This document shows, one piece after another, positions 9,777 through 22,014 of a DNA stretch of 64,000 nucleotides. The notes beneath the pieces are model-generated. The model was given only the letters and a program-made list of their open reading frames with translations, made no database searches and had not been told where the DNA came from. A program made the position numbers and the translations under genes. The stretch spans positions 124,001-188,000 of the forward strand of contig NZ_CANDNZ010000005.1 of assembly GCF_947387555.1 (NCBI RefSeq), given 5' to 3'. Each line of letters opens with the position of its first letter. Within the stretch, counting starts at the first letter, position 1. The stretch is from Thalassomonas sp. RHCl1 (GTDB lineage Bacteria; Pseudomonadota; Gammaproteobacteria; Enterobacterales; Alteromonadaceae).

Positions 9777-12293
9777 CTAACACACTTTAACTACCGCGGG
9801 GTTTAACTGAGTCCTACTGTCCTCGAGCCCCTTTATATCCATGGGTTTACTAATATGGTATCCCTGAGCGTAATGTACACCTAATTCCGATAACTTCATT
9901 AACGTCTGCTCATTTTCCACAAATTCTGCCACGGTTTTCTTATTTAAGGCCTGTGCCGTTTCATGAATGGCTTTTACCAGCGCGGCGTCCGTTGGGTCTT
10001 TAAGCATGTCTTTAACAAATGAACCGTCGATCTTAACACTTTCTGCAGGAATTTGCTTTAAATAGGAAAAAGTACTGAAACCTGTCCCGAAATCATCGAT
10101 GGAAAAACCGCAACCTAGCTCGTTAAGACGGTTTACCATGCGTTGGGTACCGGTGAGGTTTGACAAGCTGGCACTTTCGGTTAATTCGAAAATCACCCTT
10201 GAGGGTTCAATCGAATACTGGTTTAACTTCTCTTCAATAAACGCCAGCAACCGATCATCGCCAAATGCCTGTGCCGAGAGGTTGATTGCCACCTTAGTTA
10301 AGGCCGGATAGGTTTTCATCAGGTGTAACGCTTTGCCGATCACATGCCGGTCAAGCAGGGTCATATCTTCCGCTTTTTCCAGCGACGGAATAAACTCACC
10401 CGGCAATATCACCTTGCCGTCGACCTGTAAGCGCACCAGGGCTTCATAATATTCAATTTCCCGGGTTTTAACATCGATAATCGGCTGAAAATGCAACAGG
10501 ATATTATCTTCTAACAGCGCTTTTTGTAATTTTTGCGCCCATTCAAAGCTTTGTTTTAATTCATCGGTGACATTATCGTCTTCGGTAAACAGGTGCACCC
10601 GGTTACGCCCCTGCTCTTTGGCAGCGAACATGGCTATATCCGCCTGTTGCAGGTAGATTTCGCTGGAGATGGCTTTACCGTCGATCACGGAAATACCGAC
10701 ACTGCAGCTGACCTTATACACCTGGTCGGCAAACTTAAAACTGGAATCGGCGATGGTCTGGCAAATTTCCAGCGCCACTTTTTCGGCATCTTCAACACAG
10801 GTATTGGTGAGCAAAATGGCAAATTCATCGCCGCCGATACGGCATAAGGTATCACTGGCGCGGGTGCGCTCCGACAACAAGCGGGCAATTTCTTTGAGTA
10901 CTAAGTCGCCCTGATGGTGCCCTTGCGAGTCATTGATAATTTTAAAATGGTCCAGATCAAGATAAATCAGCGAGTGATAAATCCCGGTGCGGGTGGCGAT
11001 GCTGGCAACATTTTTAAGCTCGTTATCAAAGTAATAACGGTTGTGTATTCCGGTCAGGGTATCGTGCAGGGCGACATGCTTTAATCTTTGCTCGGCTTTC
11101 TTGCGTACGCTGATATCGTCTATGGTGCCGGAAATACCGACAATTTTACCGCTCTCATCAAAGTAAGGATTTAAGTTGATTTCACACCAGAAATAACCGC
11201 CGTCACTTTTGATCAGTTTCACTTCAATTTGATCATGCTGGCGTTTGCCGCACAGCAGCTGGCTGAAAGACTCCTCGATGTTGTGTTTTAACAGGAAACT
11301 AGAGTCCTGGATAAAGTCGGTAAAGAGCTTACCGATACTCTCCGACACCATAAAGCCGGTGCACTTATACCAGGCATTATTAAGGAACAAAATTCGCCCC
11401 TTGGCGGTCACTTCAATAACGATACTGCTTAAGCTGTCCAGGATGCGGTAATGGGTTTTGGATAAGGAATAATACTTTTGCTGCTCGTTTTTCAGCTCTT
11501 GGGTTTTGGCGGCAAACTGTTCGTTGGAAACAATAAAATCTTCGCGTTTGGCGGCAATATCGCACACTTTGCGCAATTGCTCCGCCTTAAAGGGTTTCTG
11601 GATATAATCCGCCGCCCCTTTCACTAGCATCAGCTCAGCCAAATCGATAGTGCCGTGGGCGGTCATGGCGATAACCACCTGTTTGGGATTGAGTTCGATA
11701 ATAACATCGAGTACTTCATCCCCTGACATGCCCGGCATCATGATATCGAGCAAAACGATATCATAGGATTTTTCCCTAAAGGCCTTGATCCCGGAAACGC
11801 CGTCGTAGGCAATATCAATATTAAATTTATGCTTGAGCATACGTTGCACGAGATTAGCGGTATCTTCGGTATCCTCAATCACCAGGATATCCAGGGGTTT
11901 ATTAAAATTCCCCTGATCGGCAACCACCTGGCCGACCACATCTACCACTAAATCCAGTTCTTGATAGGAAATCACCTTGTTGATATCAAACATGCGCGCG
12001 GTGGTTTCGGCAATACGCTCACAATGATTTTCCGTAACCAATAAAATCGGCAAGTCTTTGCTTGAAGCTAGAATGCCGGAGCGGATCAAACGTGACAAAC
12101 GCCAGCCGTCGACATCCCCGATATCGACTTCCGTCAGCACTAAATCCGCCTGGTGGGATCGTAAAAAGTTAACCGCTTCAACACTGTCTGATGCCAGAAT
12201 AACTTCATGTCCGGCCATTTCAAGTTTACCCGAAGTCCGTTCCCTCACCGACTCATTTTGTAAAATCAACAATATTATCAAGGCATTATCCAT
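9777..12293 (-). CDS. REC-REC-PAS-GGDEF-EAL signalling protein
   Basis: The 838-residue cytoplasmic protein has two receiver domains (about 4-120 and 133-250), a PAS domain (about 285-395), GGDEF (about 400-565) and EAL (about 580-825). In the first receiver the phosphoacceptor position reads LTEVDIGD, with Glu in place of Asp, which may mimic permanent phosphorylation. The second is canonical (VLLDIMMPGMSG). The cyclase site RIGGDEFAILL is intact. The phosphodiesterase keeps EALVRL, DDFGTGFSTFSYL and AEFVE, so both activities are possible. It heads the minus-strand series with the ThDP enzyme, TonB receptor and citrate-synthase-fold genes. The orphan sensor kinase at 2.4 kb is a candidate to phosphorylate receiver 2. 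A 7-bp hairpin (ATGCCGG/CCGGCAT, 12308-12334) lies in its leader. Confidence 0.93.
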   Translation of the reverse strand: MDNALIILLILQNESVRERTSGKLEMAGHEVILASDSVEAVNFLRSHQADLVLTEVDIGDVDGWRLSRLIRSGILASSKDLPILLVTENHCERIAETTARMFDINKVISYQELDLVVDVVGQVVADQGNFNKPLDILVIEDTEDTANLVQRMLKHKFNIDIAYDGVSGIKAFREKSYDIVLLDIMMPGMSGDEVLDVIIELNPKQVVIAMTAHGTIDLAELMLVKGAADYIQKPFKAEQLRKVCDIAAKREDFIVSNEQFAAKTQELKNEQQKYYSLSKTHYRILDSLSSIVIEVTAKGRILFLNNAWYKCTGFMVSESIGKLFTDFIQDSSFLLKHNIEESFSQLLCGKRQHDQIEVKLIKSDGGYFWCEINLNPYFDESGKIVGISGTIDDISVRKKAEQRLKHVALHDTLTGIHNRYYFDNELKNVASIATRTGIYHSLIYLDLDHFKIINDSQGHHQGDLVLKEIARLLSERTRASDTLCRIGGDEFAILLTNTCVEDAEKVALEICQTIADSSFKFADQVYKVSCSVGISVIDGKAISSEIYLQQADIAMFAAKEQGRNRVHLFTEDDNVTDELKQSFEWAQKLQKALLEDNILLHFQPIIDVKTREIEYYEALVRLQVDGKVILPGEFIPSLEKAEDMTLLDRHVIGKALHLMKTYPALTKVAINLSAQAFGDDRLLAFIEEKLNQYSIEPSRVIFELTESASLSNLTGTQRMVNRLNELGCGFSIDDFGTGFSTFSYLKQIPAESVKIDGSFVKDMLKDPTDAALVKAIHETAQALNKKTVAEFVENEQTLMKLSELGVHYAQGYHISKPMDIKGLEDSRTQLNPAVVKVC

Positions 12294-12935
12294 ATCATAA
12301 CATACAAATGCCGGCCTGAAATGGCGACCGGCATATAATTTCTCTGAGCCTACTTTTGCTTATTCTCGGATAAAAGTAAATACATAGCGATAAAGATAGC
12401 TGGACGGGGAATAAAATATTCAATAAAAAATTGATTAGACTCAAAGGATAAGCACTGTTTTATTCCATACAAAAAAATAGCTTTTAAAATTTGTCCTCAA
12501 CCAAGTGGCCGTTAACAAGCTTTATCACCGCTTTCAAAGCTTGCCGATAACAACAAAAAGAAAACGGTAATTCAACAAAAAAAGCTCTAATCATTCGATG
12601 AAATAAAAACCGTTAATTGTGCCGAAGTCAGCCACTGTACTTTAAGAGCGGCAAAAGAAAGCAACTAGCAAAGCACAAACGCCATCTATGCCTGACTCCG
12701 CAAGCAGGAGAAAACTATCGAAAAAATCGTTTTTATTCGCCAATTAATACCAATATAAAAAAGGACTTACTGTGATACACTTAGTAGGCAATTCAAGGGT
12801 TATTCCCCTTACCCCCATTTTCGAATGAAAAAAGCTGTCACTGTTGGTTCCTCAGGTAAAAAAAGCCCAAGCCAGGCTTGCATTCAGGAATTACATTTTT
12901 GCCAGCGGCCAAAGTCGTACATTCACGAGGTAGTA
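12294..12935. other. Divergent intergenic region
   Basis: 642 nt separate the GGDEF-EAL and MFS starts. Besides the leader hairpin at 12308-12334 there is an inverted repeat CAAGCTTT/AAAGCTTG (12516-12543, 12-nt loop). An in-frame ATG at 12825 could extend the MFS gene by 37 residues, but that extension is polar, not conserved in style, and lacks a ribosome site. I see no gene here. Confidence 0.55.
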
Positions 12936-14138
12936 ATGAAGCAAGAAAAACACACGGTAAAAAAAGAGTTTATCGCCCTGATGGCCATACTCATGTCGCT
13001 GGTAGCCCTGACCATAGACGCCATGTTACCTGCGCTGAGCCAGATAGGCGAAAGTTTGCAGGTGGCAAACAGCAATGACAACCAACTGATTATTACCAGC
13101 GTTTTTCTCGGCATGGCTGTAGGACTGATCTTTTACGGACCTTTATCGGATGCCTACGGCCGTAAAAAAATTATTTATCTGGGGATCGCTATTTTTATCC
13201 TGGGCAACCTGTTGTCGATATTCTCAAGTAGTTTCTTTGTTATGCTGGTAGGCCGGGTGCTGCAAGGCTTTGGCGTTGCCTCCTGCCGCGTTGTTTCCCT
13301 GGCGATGATACGGGATCAATTTGAAGGTCCGCAAATGGGCAAGGTCATGTCGCTTATTATGATGTTTTTTATTATGGTACCCGCCCTTGCCCCCTCTGTT
13401 GGCCAAGGGATCTTATTATTTAGTCAGTGGCGGGCTATCTTTGTGCTGATTTTGCTGTTTGGTATTATCAGTCTTATCTGGCTGCATTTTCGTCAGCAAG
13501 AAACCCTGGTGCCCCAAAAGCGCATCCCGCTTTCATTAACTTCTTTAAAGTCCGGGGCCGCTGAAACCTTGAAACACCCGGTATCACGCCGTTATATGTT
13601 CGCTTCCGGGATAATCTTCGGTGCTTTTGTCGGTTATTTAAGTACCGCCCAACAAATACTGCAGCACCAATATCAGCTGGGTGATTTATTTTCTCTCTAC
13701 TTTGGCGCCCTGGCGCTGGCAATAGGTTTATCTTCATTCACCAATTCAAAGCTGGTGATGCGTTTTAACATGGCTAAACTGTGCCACGGGGCTTTAATTG
13801 TCCTTACCATTAGCGCCTTGGGGTTTTATTTTTATATCGAGTACCTGGGAGAGCAGCCGACACTGGCGGCATTAATGGTCTATTTAGCCGTCACCTTTTT
13901 TAGCATAGGCATTTTATTTGGCAACTTAAATACCCTGGCATTACAACCTTTAGGGCATATAGCCGGGATTGCCACCTCAGTGATCAGCTCGGTACAAACC
14001 TTCATTTCTGTACTCATTGGCGGCATCATAGGCCAGCTCTATGGTGCCAGCGTTGTTCCCCTGGTACTGGGATTTTTCTTTTGCAGCTTGACCACCCTGG
14101 TATTAATTCACCGGATAAAAAAAGCAGCTGAGATATAA
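12936..14138 (+). CDS. MFS drug-resistance transporter, Bcr/CflA type
   Basis: The 400-residue product has about twelve membrane helices and the marks of the DHA1 Bcr/CflA exporters: LTIDAMLPALSQIGESL in helix 1 with the acidic residue, the loop motif GPLSDAYGRKKIIYLG between helices 2 and 3, GRVLQGFGVASCRVVSLAMIRD in helix 4, and the antiporter-type APSVGQ in helix 5. The start is taken at the ATG at 12936, which has ACGAGG 5 nt upstream; the longer reading from 12825 adds a polar tail without such a site. It should expel small drugs or metabolites across the inner membrane by proton antiport. It stands alone, with the GGDEF-EAL gene divergent. It is followed by a hairpin whose T tract is on the other strand. 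Confidence 0.92.
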   Translation: MKQEKHTVKKEFIALMAILMSLVALTIDAMLPALSQIGESLQVANSNDNQLIITSVFLGMAVGLIFYGPLSDAYGRKKIIYLGIAIFILGNLLSIFSSSFFVMLVGRVLQGFGVASCRVVSLAMIRDQFEGPQMGKVMSLIMMFFIMVPALAPSVGQGILLFSQWRAIFVLILLFGIISLIWLHFRQQETLVPQKRIPLSLTSLKSGAAETLKHPVSRRYMFASGIIFGAFVGYLSTAQQILQHQYQLGDLFSLYFGALALAIGLSSFTNSKLVMRFNMAKLCHGALIVLTISALGFYFYIEYLGEQPTLAALMVYLAVTFFSIGILFGNLNTLALQPLGHIAGIATSVISSVQTFISVLIGGIIGQLYGASVVPLVLGFFFCSLTTLVLIHRIKKAAEI

Positions 14139-14149
14139 ACGGCCTCACC

Positions 14150-14197
14150 AAAAATAAAAAAGTGCTGACCGGCAGTTAGCCATCGCCGGTCAGCACT
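14150..14197 (-). terminator. Terminator-like hairpin oriented on the minus strand
   Basis: A perfect 13-bp stem AGTGCTGACCGGC/GCCGGTCAGCACT (14161-14173 with 14185-14197) is flanked on its left by AAAAATAAAAA. Read on the minus strand it is a textbook intrinsic terminator with a T-rich tail. On the plus strand it has a stem but no T run. No minus-strand gene ends here, so it may stop antisense transcripts from the protease gene, or act as a weak end for the MFS transcript. Confidence 0.6.
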
Positions 14198-14317
14198 GAA
14201 AATCAAGTAAGCTCCCCGCTCCCATGGCAGGCAAAGAGAAAGTACTGGCCTGGTTTGACAAGGCCGGGTAATATCGACGCTTAGTTTTTACTCTAATTGG
14301 CAACATTCAAATTTAGC

Positions 14318-15739
14318 ATGCACAAAACAGCCATCGACGATCAACTCACCAAGCAGTCACAGACAACAACACCAGAGCTTAAGGGTATGACAAAAGATAA
14401 CCTCGAAAAAAGCATCCATATTCCCATCTGTAATGTTTATGCCAAAGGCGATTACTGCGCACAACTGCTGATCGGCAGTGAGCAAACCCCGGTCAACCTG
14501 ATTTTAGATACCGGCAGCAGCACCTTAGTGGTTGAACAGAAAGTCTATCAGCCACAAACAGATCAGGAGCTACAGCCAACCTCTTTTGCCCAGGAAGTTA
14601 ACTACGGCATTGGCGGCTGGGACGGCCCGGTGGTGACCACCTCAGTTTCCATAGGTAACCAGCAAGACCAGTTGACCTTAAAACAGACGCCCCTGGCCCT
14701 GGTTTCCTGTGACCTGCAAAATAAAACCTTTGGCCAAGCCGACGGCATGTTTGGCCTGGCCTATCGCCATCTCAATAAAAGTTATGATCTTAAAGCTTAT
14801 TTGCAGCAAAATAATATCACCCCGGCGGTCACCTACCCTTGGCCCTTTAGCCATGACGAGAAAGCACACCAACAAGCCAATCACCATAACATCAACATAG
14901 CCGCGGCCAAGGCCAGCAGCCTAAACCAGCAGCCGGACGAGATAAACAGCGACGATTTAAGACAATTTAACCGGTTTTTGTGGCAATCGCCGAAGAAAAA
15001 TATCATCCCCTATTTCACTTCTCTGGAAGAGCATGACTTAATCGCCAACAAGTTTGCTTTTTACAGTAAACGCTCCAGTATTTATGTCGCCGATGATAAC
15101 GCCACTACAGCCGAACTGGCACAGCATCCTCTAAACCAGGGAGCACTTATTCTTGGCGGCGGCGAAGAACAGACCCAGCTTTACCGGGGGGAATTTAAAA
15201 CCTTAAAGGTTGAACATGATATTTATTACAATGTCAGCCTGAGCTCGCTGCAGGTAGGCGATCAACCTGTTATTCCAGCACCTGAGCTGGCCGATAAACA
15301 CCAAAAAAGCTATTTTACCAATGCCATCATAGATACCGGCGCATCCTTGGTAGTACTCACCAGCGGGATGTACCAGCAAATGCTCAGGGACTTTGCCGCC
15401 ATATCCGCAGATTTTACCGCCTTACTTACTCCCTTTGCGGAAATATCAGCCCAGGAAACCGGTATCGACAGCTCGCTGCTAGACATGAATAAATGGCCGG
15501 ATCTCACCTTTAATTTCACCGGCTCAGATAATAAGACCGTCAGTTTGGTGTGCAAACCCGAAACCTACTGGCAAACCAACAGTCCAAAAGCCGATAAAGC
15601 CTGCTTTAAAATACTGACCCAACTGCCAAACTGGCCGAATCAAAGCATTCTCGGCCTGCCTTTGATCAATAATTATTATTTGATTTTCGACCGGACGGTT
15701 AACTGTACCGGGGTGATCAAGTTTGCAACCTCCTGCTAA
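14318..15739 (+). CDS. Pepsin-like aspartic protease (family A1)
   Basis: The 473-residue product has both active-site signatures of the bilobed A1 pepsin family: LILDTGSSTLVV (Asp about 64) and AIIDTGASLVVLTSGMY (Asp about 339). Other family landmarks are DGMFGLAYR after the first lobe, GALILGGGEEQTQLYRGEF and a C-terminal ILGLPLINNYYLIFDR. No signal peptide is seen, so it is probably cytoplasmic, as described for the bacterial pepsins of Shewanella (shewasins). It is longer than those by an insert of roughly 80 residues (about 160-240). The ATG at 14318 is preferred to the TTG at 14297; neither has a strong ribosome site. Two disulphide-style Cys pairs are possible (VSCDL, VNCTG). Bacterial members are rare; the role is unknown. 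Confidence 0.92.
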   Translation: MHKTAIDDQLTKQSQTTTPELKGMTKDNLEKSIHIPICNVYAKGDYCAQLLIGSEQTPVNLILDTGSSTLVVEQKVYQPQTDQELQPTSFAQEVNYGIGGWDGPVVTTSVSIGNQQDQLTLKQTPLALVSCDLQNKTFGQADGMFGLAYRHLNKSYDLKAYLQQNNITPAVTYPWPFSHDEKAHQQANHHNINIAAAKASSLNQQPDEINSDDLRQFNRFLWQSPKKNIIPYFTSLEEHDLIANKFAFYSKRSSIYVADDNATTAELAQHPLNQGALILGGGEEQTQLYRGEFKTLKVEHDIYYNVSLSSLQVGDQPVIPAPELADKHQKSYFTNAIIDTGASLVVLTSGMYQQMLRDFAAISADFTALLTPFAEISAQETGIDSSLLDMNKWPDLTFNFTGSDNKTVSLVCKPETYWQTNSPKADKACFKILTQLPNWPNQSILGLPLINNYYLIFDRTVNCTGVIKFATSC

Positions 15740-15842
15740 TCGATAGCAGAAAGGAAATTAAACAAAAAGTGAATTCATCAGCAAAAATTCAAGCCAAAGA
15801 GACTAAAATTAAGCCATCCTCAAAATATCAGGGAAGAGATAC

Positions 15843-16427
15843 ATGGCCGGAGAAATTTTAGTCACCGATAATCAGCAGGCTTGTTTTGGCAGCAAGCATC
15901 TATTTTTCCGCCCGCTGGCAAAGCAGGATAAAGCCCTGTACTTTTCTCTTTATACCAATAAACAGGTCATGCGGCATATCGGCCCGCCTTTAAGCCACAA
16001 ACAAACACAACAGCTTTTTAGTTTTACCCTTAACAACACCAGCAGCTATGGCGATCAGCGTTTCAGTTGGACGGTTGTCGAACGCCAAAGCCAAAAAACC
16101 ATAGGTATGGTGGCTTTTACCTGGGATTTAACGCAAAGTGATGCTGCTAGCATCGGTATCATGCTTTATTGTGACAGCCAGGGAAAGGGTTATGGACTGG
16201 AAGCTCAAGGAGCCCTGAGTGAATACGGCTTTTCACGTTTGGCCCTAAACAGAATTTATACTCAGTTTGCGACAACTAACCTCGTGAACGAACACATCTA
16301 TCACAAATTAGGCTTCATCATTTCTGATGAAAAAGAAGCTAGAAGTAGCAGTAACCCTTTGCCAACAAAATCCTGCTATCTTGATAAAAAGGGGTGGCAG
16401 CATAGCTTTATGGAAAGTTGTCCTTGA
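15843..16427 (+). CDS. GNAT acetyltransferase, RimJ/RimL-like
   Basis: The 194-residue product reads as a single Gcn5-related domain. It opens with the HLFFRPLAKQDKALYFSLYTNKQVMRHIG pattern typical of RimJ/RimL-type enzymes and carries the acetyl-CoA motif SQGKGYGLEAQGALSEYGF, followed by RIYTQFATTNLVNEHIYHKLGF. It should transfer acetyl from acetyl-CoA to an amine, a protein N-terminus or a small molecule; the acceptor cannot be told. A GGGAAGAGA ribosome site precedes the ATG. It is followed after about 100 nt by a close paralogue, probably from a tandem duplication. Confidence 0.87.
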   Translation: MAGEILVTDNQQACFGSKHLFFRPLAKQDKALYFSLYTNKQVMRHIGPPLSHKQTQQLFSFTLNNTSSYGDQRFSWTVVERQSQKTIGMVAFTWDLTQSDAASIGIMLYCDSQGKGYGLEAQGALSEYGFSRLALNRIYTQFATTNLVNEHIYHKLGFIISDEKEARSSSNPLPTKSCYLDKKGWQHSFMESCP

Positions 16428-16523
16428 TAAATTGCTTTTAATAAAACCTTCAGGTATAAAAAATAAAAGCCTCATCACGATTTGTCCTCAAAAGACAGGC
16501 CGCTGTTAATATTAAAAGACAAC

Positions 16524-17015
16524 ATGCATAGTTTCACTACCGAAAGATTATTCATCCGTGCGCTGGAAAAACAAGATCAAGCCTTATATTGTCATTTATA
16601 TACCGACGCCAAAGTCATGCGCCATATTTGTCAGCCTTTAAGCCAAGAACAAGCGATGAAGGCTTTTCACACAACCCTTAATAAGCAAACGAGTAACACG
16701 AATCATCAATTTAGTTGGGCTATTACCTCTAAAGAAACGAATCAGGCCATCGGTATTGTCGGCTTTCAGTCACAAGAAAAAGAACACGCCATTTTAGGAC
16801 TGCTGATAGTAGAGAATTCTCAAGGAAGGGGCTATGCACCTGAAGTATTTAAAGAACTCATTAACGTATGTCACAACACTTTTGGTTTTAAAAAATTCAC
16901 TTCACAAGTTCAAAAAGATAATATTAATAGCATCAAATTTTTAAAACTAATCGGCTTTCGGTCTGAACAATTAGCACATACCAAAGATATAGATACTTAT
17001 GTATTTAATATCTGA
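16524..17015 (+). CDS. GNAT acetyltransferase, paralogue of the preceding gene
   Basis: The 163-residue product repeats the layout of the upstream GNAT: FTTERLFIRALEKQDQALYCHLYTDAKVMRHI, then the acetyl-CoA motif ENSQGRGYAPEVFKELI and a closing DNINSIKFLKLIGF. The shared RALxKQDxALYxxLYTxxxVMRHI pattern shows they are duplicates that have diverged. The ATG at 16524 is chosen because family members start just before TTERL; the TTG at 16482 would add 14 residues. The gene is more A+T-rich than its upstream copy and begins the A+T-rich tract that includes the borosin locus. Acceptor unknown. Confidence 0.85.
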   Translation: MHSFTTERLFIRALEKQDQALYCHLYTDAKVMRHICQPLSQEQAMKAFHTTLNKQTSNTNHQFSWAITSKETNQAIGIVGFQSQEKEHAILGLLIVENSQGRGYAPEVFKELINVCHNTFGFKKFTSQVQKDNINSIKFLKLIGFRSEQLAHTKDIDTYVFNI

Positions 17016-17309
17016 AGTGATAGAAAAAGTTCTGCCCGTCAGTTTACTATAGAAATAAGCCTTCATTTTTCATCGCAGAATGAATAACATAACACCATGA
17101 TTTCAATAGAAACAAAGTATTCACCAAGATGTTTTTAAATTACCAACTAACACCTGTGGTAGATTTATTAATCATAAAGTGAGATCGCTTTATTTTTTTA
17201 AGAGATCTTCGTTTGTTAGAGTTTTCAAACAATTTAATAGCTGTTATCGTAGTTTCAATCAACTTGTTCCGCCCACGAGATATAAAAATTAAAAAAGGTA
17301 TTATGGTAA
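17016..17309. other. A+T-rich upstream region of the borosin operon
   Basis: 294 nt with very high A+T content and no supportable gene. It should hold the promoter for the methyltransferase. Just before the methyltransferase start, an ATG at 17303 opens a 5-codon frame (MVNVR) that ends inside the methyltransferase gene and overlaps its start out of frame. Confidence 0.5.
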
Positions 17310-18098
17310 ATGTCAGGTAATTTAGTATGTGTTGGCATTGGCATGACCTTAGGGGCCCATATTTGTCCAATTGCTAAAAGTTACATTCAGGAAGCTGATG
17401 TGGTTTTTTCGGGTGTTTCTAACGGTATTGTCGAATTATGGATCAAAGAAATGCATAACGATGTACGTAGTTTGCAGCAATATTACAGTGAAGGAAAACC
17501 AAGAACCATTACCTATAAGGAAATGGTCGACGCCATGTTAAGTGAAGTCCGTGCAGGAAAAAAAGTCGTTGGTGCTTTTTACGGCCACCCCGGTGTCTTT
17601 GCTCATGCTCCCCATAAGTCAATCGAATTAGCCAAAGCCGAAGGCTTTGAAGCTAAAATGATCCCGGGCATATCCGCCGAAGACTGCCTTTTTGCCGATC
17701 TGGGTATTGACCCCGGTAAATATGGCTGCGCCCAATATGAAGCCAGCCAATTGATGTTTTACCAGCGAACAATTGATACCTGTGCTTATCTAATCCTCTG
17801 GCAAGTAGGCATTGCAGGCGACCAATCATTAGGAAAGTTCTCCACGACTAAAGCTTACCGCCAAGTTTTGATCGATCTGCTTGCTAAAGATTACCCTATG
17901 GAGCATCAGGTAATTTTATATGAAGCAGCGGTACTACCTATTGAAAATACCCGTATTGAAAAAATTTCTCTGGCAGACTTTCTCAATGCCGAACTATCAC
18001 AGCACACAACTATGGTAATACCACCTGCAAAAAAGATGCAATCTAACGATGCTATTTTAAAGCGTTTAGCTGAACTGGACTCGACGATAACAGAGTAA
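17310..18098 (+). CDS. Borosin-type peptide alpha-N-methyltransferase (split, SonM-like)
   Basis: The 262-residue protein belongs to the tetrapyrrole-methylase (TP) SAM-dependent fold and specifically resembles the borosin backbone N-methyltransferases: LVCVGIGMTLGAHICPIAKSYI at the N-terminus, YGHPGVFA, PGISAEDCLFADLGIDPG, and a C-terminal MVIPPAKK. Candidate catalytic residues Tyr59, Arg65, Tyr69 and Tyr91 have spacings 6, 4 and 22, the same as Tyr66, Arg72, Tyr76 and Tyr98 that I recall from fungal OphMA. There is no fused C-terminal core, so substrate must come in trans, as in the Shewanella oneidensis SonM/SonA pair. The precursor gene follows after 57 nt. It should iteratively methylate backbone amides of that precursor. 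Cobalamin or haem methylases share the fold but not this motif set and would not have this neighbour. Confidence 0.9.
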   Translation: MSGNLVCVGIGMTLGAHICPIAKSYIQEADVVFSGVSNGIVELWIKEMHNDVRSLQQYYSEGKPRTITYKEMVDAMLSEVRAGKKVVGAFYGHPGVFAHAPHKSIELAKAEGFEAKMIPGISAEDCLFADLGIDPGKYGCAQYEASQLMFYQRTIDTCAYLILWQVGIAGDQSLGKFSTTKAYRQVLIDLLAKDYPMEHQVILYEAAVLPIENTRIEKISLADFLNAELSQHTTMVIPPAKKMQSNDAILKRLAELDSTITE

Positions 18099-18155
18099 AG
18101 CAACTAATACCTTTTCAATAGCATTATTTAACCCTAGACAACTCGAGGAATTAAC

Positions 18156-18422
18156 ATGTCTAACATTATTCAACTTTTAGAAAAAATGGGACAGGAAGCT
18201 AATTTACAAGATAAGGACAAATTAGAGCAGGCAATTCAAACAGCCGAATTAGAGCATTCATTAAAAGAGTCCTTATTGAATAAAGATAAATTGACACTGG
18301 AACGCCAGCTCGATATTTGCCCTGACATTGTCGCATTTTTATTCCCAGCTGAAGATGACCAGCCGCAGCAAGAAGATGATGAAGAGCAGAAAGAAGAAAT
18401 TCGTTCTGTTATTAACGGCTAA
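18156..18422 (+). CDS. Borosin precursor peptide (SonA-like)
   Basis: This 88-residue protein is the likely substrate of the adjacent methyltransferase. Its first ~53 residues form a small helical domain: LLEKMGQEANLQD matches by eye the FFTQLGQDAQLMED start of S. oneidensis SonA, and LLNKDKLTLERQLD matches its VMTGDMEKLKTLSG, i.e. the borosin binding domain. After it comes a hydrophobic stretch IVAFLF (residues 58-63) at about the place where SonA carries its methylated residues, then a long acidic linker (about 65-82) and the end RSVING. The methylated core is therefore either 58-63 or the last few residues. The ATG at 18156 follows a GAGGAATTA ribosome site. No Cys-, Ser- or Thr-modifying enzyme is nearby, and no dedicated protease or exporter is seen. 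Confidence 0.8.
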   Translation: MSNIIQLLEKMGQEANLQDKDKLEQAIQTAELEHSLKESLLNKDKLTLERQLDICPDIVAFLFPAEDDQPQQEDDEEQKEEIRSVING

Positions 18423-18439
18423 GAGATAACTGCAATTTA

Positions 18440-20197
18440 ATGAAAGCGATAACTAACATGAAATGTATGTCTTTCGGTTTATTATTGCTTTTGAGCACTA
18501 TTATAACGGTGAAAGCTGAAAATAGTGCTCATCTATCAAAAACCTTAGCAGAAAAATTGAAATACGCGGATCAAATAAGAAGCAGTGACCCGGAATTATC
18601 AAATACCTTACTACTTGAGCTGCAAAAGCAAAAAGAGCAACTGACCTTAGAGCAACAATTTTATCTAAAATATTTATTAGCCTATCAACTGACTTTTCAG
18701 GGCAACCCTGGCGAAGGGCTAAAACTGTTTAAAGAGCTGACCGAGTCCAAGGCCAGTAAATCACTAAAATTTCGAGCCAGCATTACCATAATTAACACTC
18801 TGGCAAATACCCAAAAGTGGAATGAAGGTTTAACCTACTTATCAAAGGCATTGGAACTTCTGCCTTCTATAGAAAACAAAGAAATAATGCAAACAGGTCT
18901 AATGGTTGCGGCTAACTTTTATAACCAGCTGGGACAATATGATCTGGGGTATAAATATGCAGAGAAACTAAGCCTTTTACCTATAAATGACCGCAACCTG
19001 TGTCTGAGCAAGGGCGTGATTATAGAAGCTAAAATTAATCTCGAACTCTTAACAGAAAACAGCAGTGAAATTAAACAAGGCATTGAAATTTGCGACAAAG
19101 TTGGTGAAAGCTTAATGAGTAGCTTCATCCGCTCATTTCTCATTCGTTTGCATATCAGCAACCAACAAGCAGATAAAGCTTTAAATATTTTATTGCCTAA
19201 CCTTAAGGTTGCTGAAAACAGTCATTACCCTCGCTTAATCATTATTTTTTACTCATCTATAGCAAAAGCATACAGCCTAAAACAAAACTATATAGAAAGT
19301 GAAAAATATGCACTTAAAACCATTGCCCGGGCAGAGCTTTTAGGGGCATCACAACCTGTAGTCCAAGCATATGAAATACTGTATCAAATTGCAGAGCAGC
19401 GAAAAGACTTTAAATTAGCACTTGAATATCATGTTAAATACACCAAGGCTAACAAAACCTATTTGGATAATATCAAAACCAAGCATCTCGCCTATCAGTT
19501 AGCAGAGCATCAGGCTATTGAACAGGAAACCCGCATTCAATTATTGGATGAACAAAACAAACTCTTACGGGTGGAGCAAGACCTTGCACAAGCAGAAGCA
19601 GAAAACAATAAACTTTTTATTTCACTGCTGATCGCCTTATCCACCCTGTTGATATTTTGGGCCTATAAAAGCCGGTTAACGCAAAAACGCTTAAGGCAAA
19701 TGGCAGAATATGATGCCCTGACCGGTATTTATAACCGCGGCCACTTTACCCAGCTGGCATTAAGCTCGCTGGAATATTGCCAAAACAGTAACCTGCCGTT
19801 AAGTTGTATCTTGTTTGATTTGGATAAATTTAAAAACATTAACGACAGCTACGGCCATACCTGCGGCGATTGGGTACTGAAAAAAACCGCCGATGTCTGT
19901 CGTAATATCGGACGGAAAAATGATATTTTTGTCCGTCTTGGCGGGGAAGAATTTTGTATCTTGTTACCCGGCTGTGATCTGCCAACCGCAAAAGAGTTTG
20001 CCGAACTTTGCCGCCGGGAAATTGCTGCAATAGATTGCACAGAATCCGGTGCTAACTTTAATGTTACCGCAAGTTTTGGTATCACAACGGCCCAGCTTTC
20101 CGGTTTTGATCTCGATAAAATTATCGCCGACGCCGACCAGGCCATGTATTTATCCAAAAATAACGGCCGCAACCAAGTCACGCTGTTTACCCCCTAA
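18440..20197 (+). CDS. Periplasmic TPR sensor with membrane-anchored GGDEF diguanylate cyclase
   Basis: The 585-residue product starts with a signal peptide (CMSFGLLLLLSTIITVKA), followed by about 340 residues of TPR-like helical repeats, a coiled coil (LAEHQAIEQETRIQLLDEQNKL), one membrane helix near 391-412 and a cytoplasmic GGDEF domain. The cyclase signature is intact in the GGEEF form (VRLGGEEFCILLPG), with YDALTGIYNRGHF at its start. It should make cyclic di-GMP in response to a periplasmic protein or peptide contact. The gene begins 18 nt after the borosin precursor stop, so it is probably in the same transcript. A second protein of similar TPR-TM layout without the cyclase motif lies at 27.9 kb. 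Confidence 0.9.
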   Translation: MKAITNMKCMSFGLLLLLSTIITVKAENSAHLSKTLAEKLKYADQIRSSDPELSNTLLLELQKQKEQLTLEQQFYLKYLLAYQLTFQGNPGEGLKLFKELTESKASKSLKFRASITIINTLANTQKWNEGLTYLSKALELLPSIENKEIMQTGLMVAANFYNQLGQYDLGYKYAEKLSLLPINDRNLCLSKGVIIEAKINLELLTENSSEIKQGIEICDKVGESLMSSFIRSFLIRLHISNQQADKALNILLPNLKVAENSHYPRLIIIFYSSIAKAYSLKQNYIESEKYALKTIARAELLGASQPVVQAYEILYQIAEQRKDFKLALEYHVKYTKANKTYLDNIKTKHLAYQLAEHQAIEQETRIQLLDEQNKLLRVEQDLAQAEAENNKLFISLLIALSTLLIFWAYKSRLTQKRLRQMAEYDALTGIYNRGHFTQLALSSLEYCQNSNLPLSCILFDLDKFKNINDSYGHTCGDWVLKKTADVCRNIGRKNDIFVRLGGEEFCILLPGCDLPTAKEFAELCRREIAAIDCTESGANFNVTASFGITTAQLSGFDLDKIIADADQAMYLSKNNGRNQVTLFTP

Positions 20198-20273
20198 TTT
20201 TTCAGGGACACCAGCCTTAAGCACTTGCCAATATCAGCAGATACCCGGACTCAACTCATCCCTGAAAAGGGGG
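20191..20273. repeat. Long-loop inverted repeat between convergent genes
   Basis: TTTTCAGGGA (20199-20208) pairs with TCCCTGAAAA (20259-20268), with CCCC/GGGG extending the stem outside a small bulge. The loop is 50 nt. It lies between the ends of the TPR-GGDEF gene (+) and the GST gene (-) and may terminate both, though neither side has a clean T tract after the stem. Confidence 0.45.
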
Positions 20274-20283
20274 ATAGCGGGTA

Positions 20284-20946
20284 TTAACTGCTGAAATAAC
20301 CTTCACAATAAATAGGCTCTAACGCATAAGCTTGTGTTAACCATTCTTGTACATAGGGCCGCTTAAGGAGACGCTCTACCCACTGGGCAACTAATGGATA
20401 ATCTTCCCCCACCCTATGATGAGCGGTTAACCTCAATACCGAAGGCACTAAAGCAATATCCGCTAACGAATACTCTCCCAGCAAATATGCTCCCCCTGTG
20501 GATTCCAGGTGCTGTTGCCAGATACCATAAATCCATTCGGCGCTGCTAATTTCATCGGCGCTCAGTTGCTTTTTTTCTTTATAAAAGGCACTTTCAAATG
20601 ACAAACAGGGACATAGCTTGCCTAAAGTGGAATGTTGCCAGGCCACCAGCGCACGCGCCCGGGCCCTGAGTTTAATATCCTGCGGCAATAAAGAGCCGTC
20701 CCCAAGCTCATTGGCATACTCCATAATAGCGGAAGAATCGAAAATCACGGTTTCATCATCCACCAATACCGGCACCGCTGCCGGCGGGGAAAAGGAGCCG
20801 ATCTCGGCCAGGTTTTGCCAGCGCTGGGGCCGCCTGATATCTATCATCACTTCTTCAAAGTCGATATTTTGTTCTCGAAGGGCAAGCCAGGCGCGAAACG
20901 CCCAGCTAGATGCATTGCGATTGCCACTATAGAGTATTCTGCTCAT
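20284..20946 (-). CDS. Glutathione S-transferase family protein
   Basis: The 220-residue product has the two GST domains: an N-terminal thioredoxin-like part (ILYSGNRNASSWAFRAWLALREQNIDFEEV, then VPVLVDDETVIFDSSAIMEYANEL with the cis-Pro and the ESxAI-type glutathione site, here DSSAI) and an all-helical C-terminal domain with LLGEYSLADIALVPSVLRL. Ser or Tyr near residue 13 would activate glutathione. It is probably a detoxification enzyme of the maleylacetoacetate-isomerase/zeta-like group; the substrate is unknown. A clear AAGGAAC ribosome site precedes the ATG. An Lrp-type regulator is divergent from it 152 nt away and may control it. Confidence 0.87.
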   Translation of the reverse strand: MSRILYSGNRNASSWAFRAWLALREQNIDFEEVMIDIRRPQRWQNLAEIGSFSPPAAVPVLVDDETVIFDSSAIMEYANELGDGSLLPQDIKLRARARALVAWQHSTLGKLCPCLSFESAFYKEKKQLSADEISSAEWIYGIWQQHLESTGGAYLLGEYSLADIALVPSVLRLTAHHRVGEDYPLVAQWVERLLKRPYVQEWLTQAYALEPIYCEGYFSS

Positions 20947-21098
20947 TTTTGTTCCTTTTAATTACCTTAGCGAATGCCGCCAGGTTTATATTTCTGCTTA
21001 TTATCTTACCGACACAGAATTAGCCATGCGCCGCAAAACCAGCGTTTAAAAGTATGTTAAACTGCAATTTTTGACTTAAATCGCATAATTTATTCACC

Positions 21099-21551
21099 AT
21101 GGATAATTTTGATAAAAAAATTCTCGAATCTTTACAGCAAAACAATCGCCTCTCCAGCCTGGAGCTGGGAGAAAAAATAGGCTTATCGGCTACTGCCTGC
21201 CAGCGCAGATTAAAGAAATTGCGCCAAAGTGACGTGATCCGTAAAGAAGTTGCGGTATTAAATCCGGTAACATTTGCTAACTATGTCACGGTTATAGTCG
21301 AAGTGATGATGAAACAAGGAGGTATGGAGAGTATCGAAAACTTCAAGCAACGCATGTTGGCGCATCAAAATATTCAGCAGTGTTATTATCTTGCCGGCAA
21401 TATTGATTTTATTGTCGTGATCACCGCCCCCAACATGGCAGCCTACGAGCAGTTAACCAAGCCCCTGTTTTTATGCGATAAAAACATACTAAAATTCCAT
21501 TCAAATGTGGTAATGGACAATGTCAAAGCAGGTTTAAACATCCCTGTTTAA
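21099..21551 (+). CDS. Lrp/AsnC family transcriptional regulator
   Basis: The 150-residue product has the AsnC-type helix-turn-helix (FDKKILESLQQNNRLSSLELGEKIGLSATACQRRLKKLRQSDVI) and the RAM ligand-binding domain (VTVIVEVMMKQGG, then NIQQCYYLAGNIDFIVVI). Such proteins form dimers or octamers and sense amino acids. The effector here is not visible. It is divergent from the GST gene and may regulate that gene and itself. A second candidate target is not apparent nearby. Downstream lies the convergent Mor-like gene. Confidence 0.92.
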   Translation: MDNFDKKILESLQQNNRLSSLELGEKIGLSATACQRRLKKLRQSDVIRKEVAVLNPVTFANYVTVIVEVMMKQGGMESIENFKQRMLAHQNIQQCYYLAGNIDFIVVITAPNMAAYEQLTKPLFLCDKNILKFHSNVVMDNVKAGLNIPV

Positions 21552-21636
21552 ATGAAATTATCAGCTGCAAGCTCCCGGTTTGATAGATATGGTACAGCCG
21601 GCAAAGTGAAACCCGGGGTAAGCCCCTCGGTAGCAA

Positions 21637-22014
21637 TTATGCCTGTATGCCCCTTTGCTTTAAAATACGTCTGATATTAGGGATCCCGGTTTTAAATTTT
21701 TGTGCCAGCTCCGGCAAAGTTTTCCCCTGGTCATTCTCTTCACAGATACTGATATTTCGGTATTTGGTCAACAGGGATTTCGGCACCCAGATATCGCCGC
21801 AACCAAAATGCTCCACCAGTTTCATGGCGGCAGTTAAACCAACGGCATTTATTATCGCCTTACTCGGCGCTCTGGCCGGTATATAAAGATAACTGGCACT
21901 AAAAACCCGCTCAAGCGCTAATGTAGCATTAACACCGATCACATCAATCAGCTCCTGTTCACATACACGGCTGCTTTTTTTGCTGTTATTACTTTGGGGA
22001 TTATTTGCTGTCAT
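21637..22014 (-). CDS. Mor-like (phage Mu middle operon regulator type) DNA-binding protein
   Basis: The 125-residue product matches the Mor/C activator layout of Mu-like phages by eye: a helical dimerisation part (LIDVIGVNATLALERVF, then VGLTAAMKLVEHFGCGDIWVPKS) and a C-terminal helix-turn-helix (TLPELAQKFKTGIPNIRRILKQRG). A polar leader of about 18 residues precedes it. AAGGAAAT lies 5 nt upstream of the ATG. It is back to back with an S24-type repressor gene, with several GTTTAG-type sites between them, so the pair looks like a phage-type genetic switch. No structural phage genes are present, so it may be a domesticated regulator or a prophage remnant. Confidence 0.65.
   Translation of the reverse strand: MTANNPQSNNSKKSSRVCEQELIDVIGVNATLALERVFSASYLYIPARAPSKAIINAVGLTAAMKLVEHFGCGDIWVPKSLLTKYRNISICEENDQGKTLPELAQKFKTGIPNIRRILKQRGIQA

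Follow-up and report, generated by a model that had tools for sequence, protein, structure and literature searches.

The window, that is, the whole stretch of 64,000 nucleotides from Thalassomonas sp. RHCl1 which was analysed, contains a methyltransferase gene (17310..18098), a gene for a protein of 88 amino acids (18156..18422) and a sensor gene (18440..20197), which lie in this order on the forward strand. The methyltransferase (262 amino acids) was identified as a borosin alpha-N-methyltransferase of the SonM family. In the PDB sequence search its top solved relative was SonM (E 6.1e-77), after which the OphMA, dbOphMA and MroMA enzymes were ranked (5e-52 to 2e-47), whereas CbiF-type enzymes were matched only at E ~1e-3. 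The three motifs on which the earlier note had based its reading (YGHPGVFA, PGISAEDC and IPPAKK) were all found in the sequence. The Tyr59, Arg65, Tyr69 and Tyr91 residues are invariant in 12 aligned sequences and align with Y58, R67, Y71 and Y93 of SonM; their spacing equals that of Y66, R72, Y76 and Y98 of OphMA (positions taken from PDB titles) with a constant offset of exactly 7 residues, as had been proposed. The identity of a tetrapyrrole or diphthine methyltransferase standing beside an unrelated 88-residue ORF would agree with the Pfam assignment of the enzyme to the broad TP_methylase family; it is contradicted by the lead of SonM over CbiF, by the conserved catalytic residues and by the recognised precursor family, and was dropped as scarcely credible. 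Best matches limited to CobA, CbiF or diphthine enzymes, which the earlier note had named as the contrary outcome, were not obtained. With SonM- and OphMA-type best matches and a SonA profile match for its partner, the pair at 17310-18422 is almost certainly a split (type IV) borosin with predicted methylation activity.

The 88-residue precursor is encoded on the same strand, at the distance of 57 nt from the methyltransferase that had been claimed. As a single query it matched nothing in Pfam or NCBIfam, nor did it find SonA in the PDB; single-sequence searches were of no use, and SonA was recognised only through a precursor profile. The profile, built from this protein and 15 relatives (16 precursors), matched residues 4-55 of SonA at E 9e-4, and the next non-borosin match had E 0.13. 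This match and the five helices predicted by modelling bear out the SonA-like binding domain, which covers residues 1-52 (18156..18311). It is followed by the putative core, residues 53-68 (DICPDIVAFLFPAEDD, 18312..18359), delimited by column conservation in 70 relatives and by alignment with a SonA ortholog, and by an acidic C-terminal tail, residues 69-88 (18360..18419), placed after the core as in the 70 relatives. The core consensus in 70 precursor-sensor pairs is hydrophobic-hydrophobic-Cys-x-x-x-Pro-Ala-Glu-Asp, and the tail beyond it has a median of 23 residues and a median net charge of -7 (least acidic -1). The tail had been held to set this precursor apart from SonA; about 20 mostly acidic residues do extend past the core while SonA stops at residue 71, but the tail is common to the relatives and hence not unique to the window. 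Ala60 (18333-18335) replaces the core cysteine, the column being Cys in 63 of the 70 relatives and Ala in one. In the alignment with the SonA ortholog, F61 and F63 correspond to L63 and I65 of SonA and, judged by position only, may be the sites of N-methylation.

Unusual precursor-like frames were also observed elsewhere. A 144-residue ORF adjoining a borosin enzyme (L173:5340-5774, minus strand) begins like a precursor and contains roughly seven HKALIITPK-type repeats; it is a candidate multi-core precursor. In a congener (genome G002), a 90-residue ORF with repeated HKA(F/V)L motifs (L009:1111-1383, minus strand), unmatched by the precursor profile, comes after a third enzyme with 50% identity. 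The precursor-like ORF at L171:6017-6280 carries two KLLLL(E/T)P copies with no sensor directly downstream, and is followed by a second enzyme-precursor-sensor set.

For the predicted structure, the enzyme and precursor were modelled as one chain in which the stops between them were read through, forming an artificial linker (mean pLDDT 84.1, pTM 0.73). The five helices at 280-334 of this chain form the binding domain with pLDDT ~82-95, and confidence drops to ~50-70 in the core and tail. A fold search with this model found SonM at 49% identity with a TM score of 0.92 on the target and 0.66 on the query, and the chain aligned with OphMA over ~370 columns (TM 0.74-0.76, rmsd 5.5-6.6 A). The OphMA-length alignment of the modelled chain supports a fused-like arrangement, without placing the core in the active site.

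Upstream of the enzyme lies a gene for a pepsin-like aspartic protease of family A1 (14297..15739, forward strand; PF00026, E 6.8e-23), with a predicted TTG start and taken as the longest ORF. Its nearest solved relatives in the PDB are beta-secretases (E ~1e-6), and it carries DTGS at 71 and DTGA at 346. Shewasins are described as Shewanella pepsin homologs that are beta-secretase-like and have Ala after the second DTG, and shewasin D as cytoplasmic (PMC4814920). The window protease shares with them family A1, the Ala after the second DTG and the likeness to beta-secretases, and is shewasin-like; it is a plausible leader protease. Lee et al. are said to have reported in 2024 (ACS Chem Biol) that shewasin A accepts a borosin precursor as its substrate. 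Between the protease and the enzyme, two consecutive GNAT acetyltransferase genes were found at 15843-17015, where most relatives show one: the first (15843..16427, forward strand; PF13302, E 1.6e-22) is a candidate peptide tailoring enzyme and the second (16482..17015, forward strand; PF13302, E 1e-24) has a predicted TTG start. An MFS transporter at 12825-14138 was rejected as a part of the system, having only one match, far away in one locus (L044), among the best 80 of 477 loci. Promoter and terminator scans gave nothing decisive.

The sensor gene starts 17 nt after the precursor and encodes a diguanylate cyclase of 585 amino acids (PF00990, E 8.4e-43), which is proposed here as a receptor. 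The predicted layout comprises an N-terminal signal or hydrophobic segment, a periplasmic TPR domain, one transmembrane helix and a GGDEF domain. The TPR matches in Pfam are weak and below the curated cut-off; the structural model (pLDDT 94) has regular TPR-type helix pairs. When the TPR part was compared with the PDB by sequence, no match was found at E <= 0.01, and in the fold search the 50 matches listed all fell on the GGDEF part and none on the TPR part. The GGDEF domain is intact, with the GG[D/E]EF motif (here GGEEF) and the I-site RxxD (RKNDIFVRLGGEEF), so that the diguanylate cyclase motifs are present. Between the signal segment and the transmembrane helix the protein has just two cysteines, C188 and C218, both invariant across an alignment of 71 sequences, which fits a periplasmic disulfide. 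Among the 70 relatives, the transmembrane helix before GGDEF was found in 66 at the chosen cut-off and a strong N-terminal hydrophobic segment in 53. The earlier note was right about the enzyme-precursor pair, yet left this sensor next to the precursor unmentioned.

The same note considered backbone N-methylating RiPPs to be few in bacteria. This did not hold for the family, in which the enzyme was matched in 121 of the 295 genomes at E <= 1e-3 (two being weak partial matches), and in 4 of 4 genomes of the genus; the split borosin is a known kind of system and is not rare here. A second enzyme, with 62% identity, occurs in the genome of the window itself, and two precursors and a sensor come after it. 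When named genomes were scanned, the single enzyme as query gave no relative and the alignment gave 477, of which the best 80 were taken, so that this locus set is biased toward the present clade. In class- and phylum-wide samples the enzyme was found in 10 of 369 and 15 of 398 genomes, respectively (25 loci); a sensor was present in 15 of these loci and none was seen in 10, where the stretches were short and genes are masked by some GC-rich ORFs; these 10 include the most distant borosin-like enzymes. Two borosin-type enzymes stand in direct tandem at each of G031:C194, G074:C444 and G017:C223. In another class of the phylum, a borosin-type enzyme domain lies in a long open frame (L203, genome G1038) of 825 residues within the stretch, running past its end.

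The linkage of the sensor was studied, irrespective of the enzyme, in the whole genomes of the family (n=295; threshold E 1e-60; best four candidates per genome scored). With this scoring the sensor passed the threshold at at least 133 places in 95 genomes, at least 116 of them within 12 kb of a borosin enzyme; of these 116, 113 were on the same strand and 97 downstream. Enzyme and sensor occurred together in 90 genomes, the enzyme only in 31, the sensor only in 5 and neither in 169 (Fisher p 5e-42, uncorrected for relatedness among the genomes). Seen from the enzyme, 100 of 145 places have a sensor at E 1e-60 with a nearest gap of up to 2441 nt; for the 45 places without one, 20 stretches were inspected, and in most of them the precursor is followed by a TPR kinase or by a sensor that has diverged further. 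Seen from the precursor, a gene matching the sensor profile lies downstream on the same strand within 750 nt in 146 of 158 distinct precursor-like ORFs and within 60 nt in 125 (median gap 12 nt). The remaining 12 comprise one at a contig edge and 11 misses; among the misses, three stand in front of an RseB-like gene and seem to be spurious precursors. In the best 80 of the 477 loci, a precursor (E < 1e-3) was recovered in 79, and 79 likewise have a sensor downstream of the enzyme at a distance of up to 2.5 kb, the exception (L077) stopping at a contig end. Clustering of the neighbours in these 80 loci placed the sensor in 74, GNAT in 61 and the pepsin-like protease in 30; no further gene family recurred in more than 5 genus labels, so that neither a dedicated exporter nor an immunity gene came to light. 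It is thus very probable that the sensor belongs to the borosin system.

The unit that is kept together is the precursor and the sensor. At two loci (L169 and L175) the order is precursor-sensor-enzyme with the pair retained, and among 15 stretches around 17 distant sensors, three (L116-L118) have the precursor-sensor pair with no enzyme within the stretch examined and 12 have no recognisable precursor. TPR-GGDEF sensors with no recognisable precursor or enzyme in the stretch examined were observed at L119-L130. In L102, an array of GNAT-precursor-sensor units stands upstream of the enzyme and a further sensor. The conserved precursor-sensor adjacency and co-occurrence suggest a signal and its cognate receptor. 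On the basis of these genomic patterns, it is somewhat more probable than the contrary that the N-methylated peptide would serve as a signal to a TPR receptor of its own, which would make c-di-GMP.

A second explanation is that the peptide is an ordinary secondary metabolite (an antibiotic, a chelator or the like) and that the TPR-GGDEF protein senses some other cue as an upstream regulator. Biosynthetic clusters often contain regulators, and the co-variation of core and TPR domain beyond shared descent, which a signal-receptor pair could have displayed, was weak: the partial rank correlation of their distances was 0.11 when GGDEF and enzyme were controlled and 0.04 once the binding domain was also controlled (70 pairs). 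This weak mirror-tree result was accordingly not used as support for the signal model. Against the secondary metabolite, the sensor directly follows the precursor and not the enzyme, even where the gene order has changed; extra precursors tend to bring extra sensors (L069, L072, L078, L095, L096 and L102); outputs vary while the precursor-sensor pair is kept; and no immunity or export gene is conserved in the best 80 of 477 loci. On the side of this explanation, no c-di-GMP riboswitch or other Rfam family was found on either strand of window 12000-22000. This explanation is unlikely, though it deserves to be weighed.

Where sensors stand in tandem in one locus (8 comparisons, 6 loci), the GGDEF distance is 0.06-0.29 and the TPR distance 0.64-0.74, and their precursors differ too, like the TPR domains. 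As 51 of 125 between-locus comparisons with a GGDEF distance <=0.30 also reach a TPR distance >=0.64, the pattern of similar GGDEF and different TPR is not special to tandem copies, and the six tandem loci probably go back to about two or three independent events.

The outputs themselves were found to be exchangeable. A TPR histidine kinase, mostly hybrid, follows the precursor in 10 loci, and TPR-only proteins do so in three cases (two in L170 and one in L177). All 15 proteins to which the sensor profile was applied were matched in their N-terminal parts (E <= 1.3e-10 within this small set), though part of the score may be generic TPR similarity. The TPR-only proteins, and the fact that peptide binding is common among TPR domains, favour a third explanation, in which the TPR protein is a membrane partner holding the precursor or processed peptide for maturation or export, while the GGDEF or kinase part reports the load. 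It is opposed by the predicted periplasmic location of the TPR domain, apart from the cytoplasmic precursor, and by the intact GG[D/E]EF motif in 67 of 67 relatives' sensors examined by motif (of 70 in the set), which argues for a signalling output; this explanation is improbable.

SonM/SonA, the split (type IV) borosin of Shewanella oneidensis, works through a methyltransferase dimer to which the precursor is bound by its helical domain and by which backbone amides in the core are N-methylated (PMC8429565). The system of the window resembles it in the separate alpha-N-methyltransferase and precursor, the five-helix binding domain and the catalytic residues. In six SonM-type stretches, with two enzymes 98-99% and one 93% identical to SonM, the SonA-like gene is in every case (6/6) directly followed by a gene of the sensor family, so that the TPR-GGDEF gene after the precursor is common to the window and to SonM orthologs of 93-99% identity. 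The window differs in an enzyme identity of ~49-50% to SonM, in a DIVAFLFPAEDD-like core in place of the SonA-type YLIIS, and in the acidic tail after the core, as SonA ends at residue 71. Upstream in the window stand the pepsin-like and GNAT genes. The fused borosins OphMA, dbOphMA and MroMA belong to the same enzyme family (E ~1e-51 to 1e-47), whereas in the window the precursor is a separate gene, the system is bacterial and a sensor gene is linked. The main text of PMC8429565 does not contain the words GGDEF, cyclase, tetratricopeptide, operon or signal. Our literature search found no work joining borosin with diguanylate, and the sensor may still have been noticed in earlier borosin surveys.

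A different likeness is offered by signalling peptides. In the RRNPP family of Gram-positive bacteria, TPR peptide receptors are encoded beside their small peptide genes, and in the window the gene of the proposed TPR receptor likewise adjoins a small peptide gene. The differences are that the window sensor is a membrane protein with its TPR domain outside and an output that is GGDEF, or histidine kinase in relatives, and that the peptide is predicted to be enzymatically N-methylated.

In the proposed signal-receptor mechanism, the methyltransferase dimer would bind the helical domain of the precursor and N-methylate backbone amides of the core, as extrapolated from SonM/SonA. Release and capping of the peptide would then probably fall to the pepsin-like protease, in the cytoplasm, together with one or two GNAT enzymes, the GNAT step being a guess, and the peptide would move to the periplasm by a route that can likewise only be guessed. 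There it may bind the periplasmic TPR domain of the sensor whose gene comes next, and this binding may switch on the cytoplasmic GGDEF domain and raise c-di-GMP. In relatives the GGDEF output is exchanged for a histidine kinase while the precursor and TPR sensor stay adjacent. The model is weakened by the lack of a signal peptide in the precursor and of a conserved exporter that could carry the peptide to the periplasmic sensor. The distant sensors lacking a recognisable precursor, the low confidence of the modelled core and the more distant enzymes with no sensor in their short stretches count against it too. In its wider form, for which the chances appear evenly divided, gammaproteobacterial split borosins, those of SonA type included, would be N-methylated RiPP pheromones with cognate TPR receptors, whose sensing domain is secreted and whose gene comes next, and with c-di-GMP synthesis or phosphorelay as interchangeable outputs.

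The role of bacterial split borosins is not established as far as our literature search showed. The presence of the sensor after the precursor in the great majority of the precursor-like ORFs, including those beside close SonM/SonA orthologs, provides a concrete and testable hypothesis of function. If it is true, backbone N-methylated ribosomal peptides would be tied to c-di-GMP signalling and two-component relays, matched peptide-receptor pairs would become available for study, and Gram-negative bacteria would gain a class of peptide signalling.
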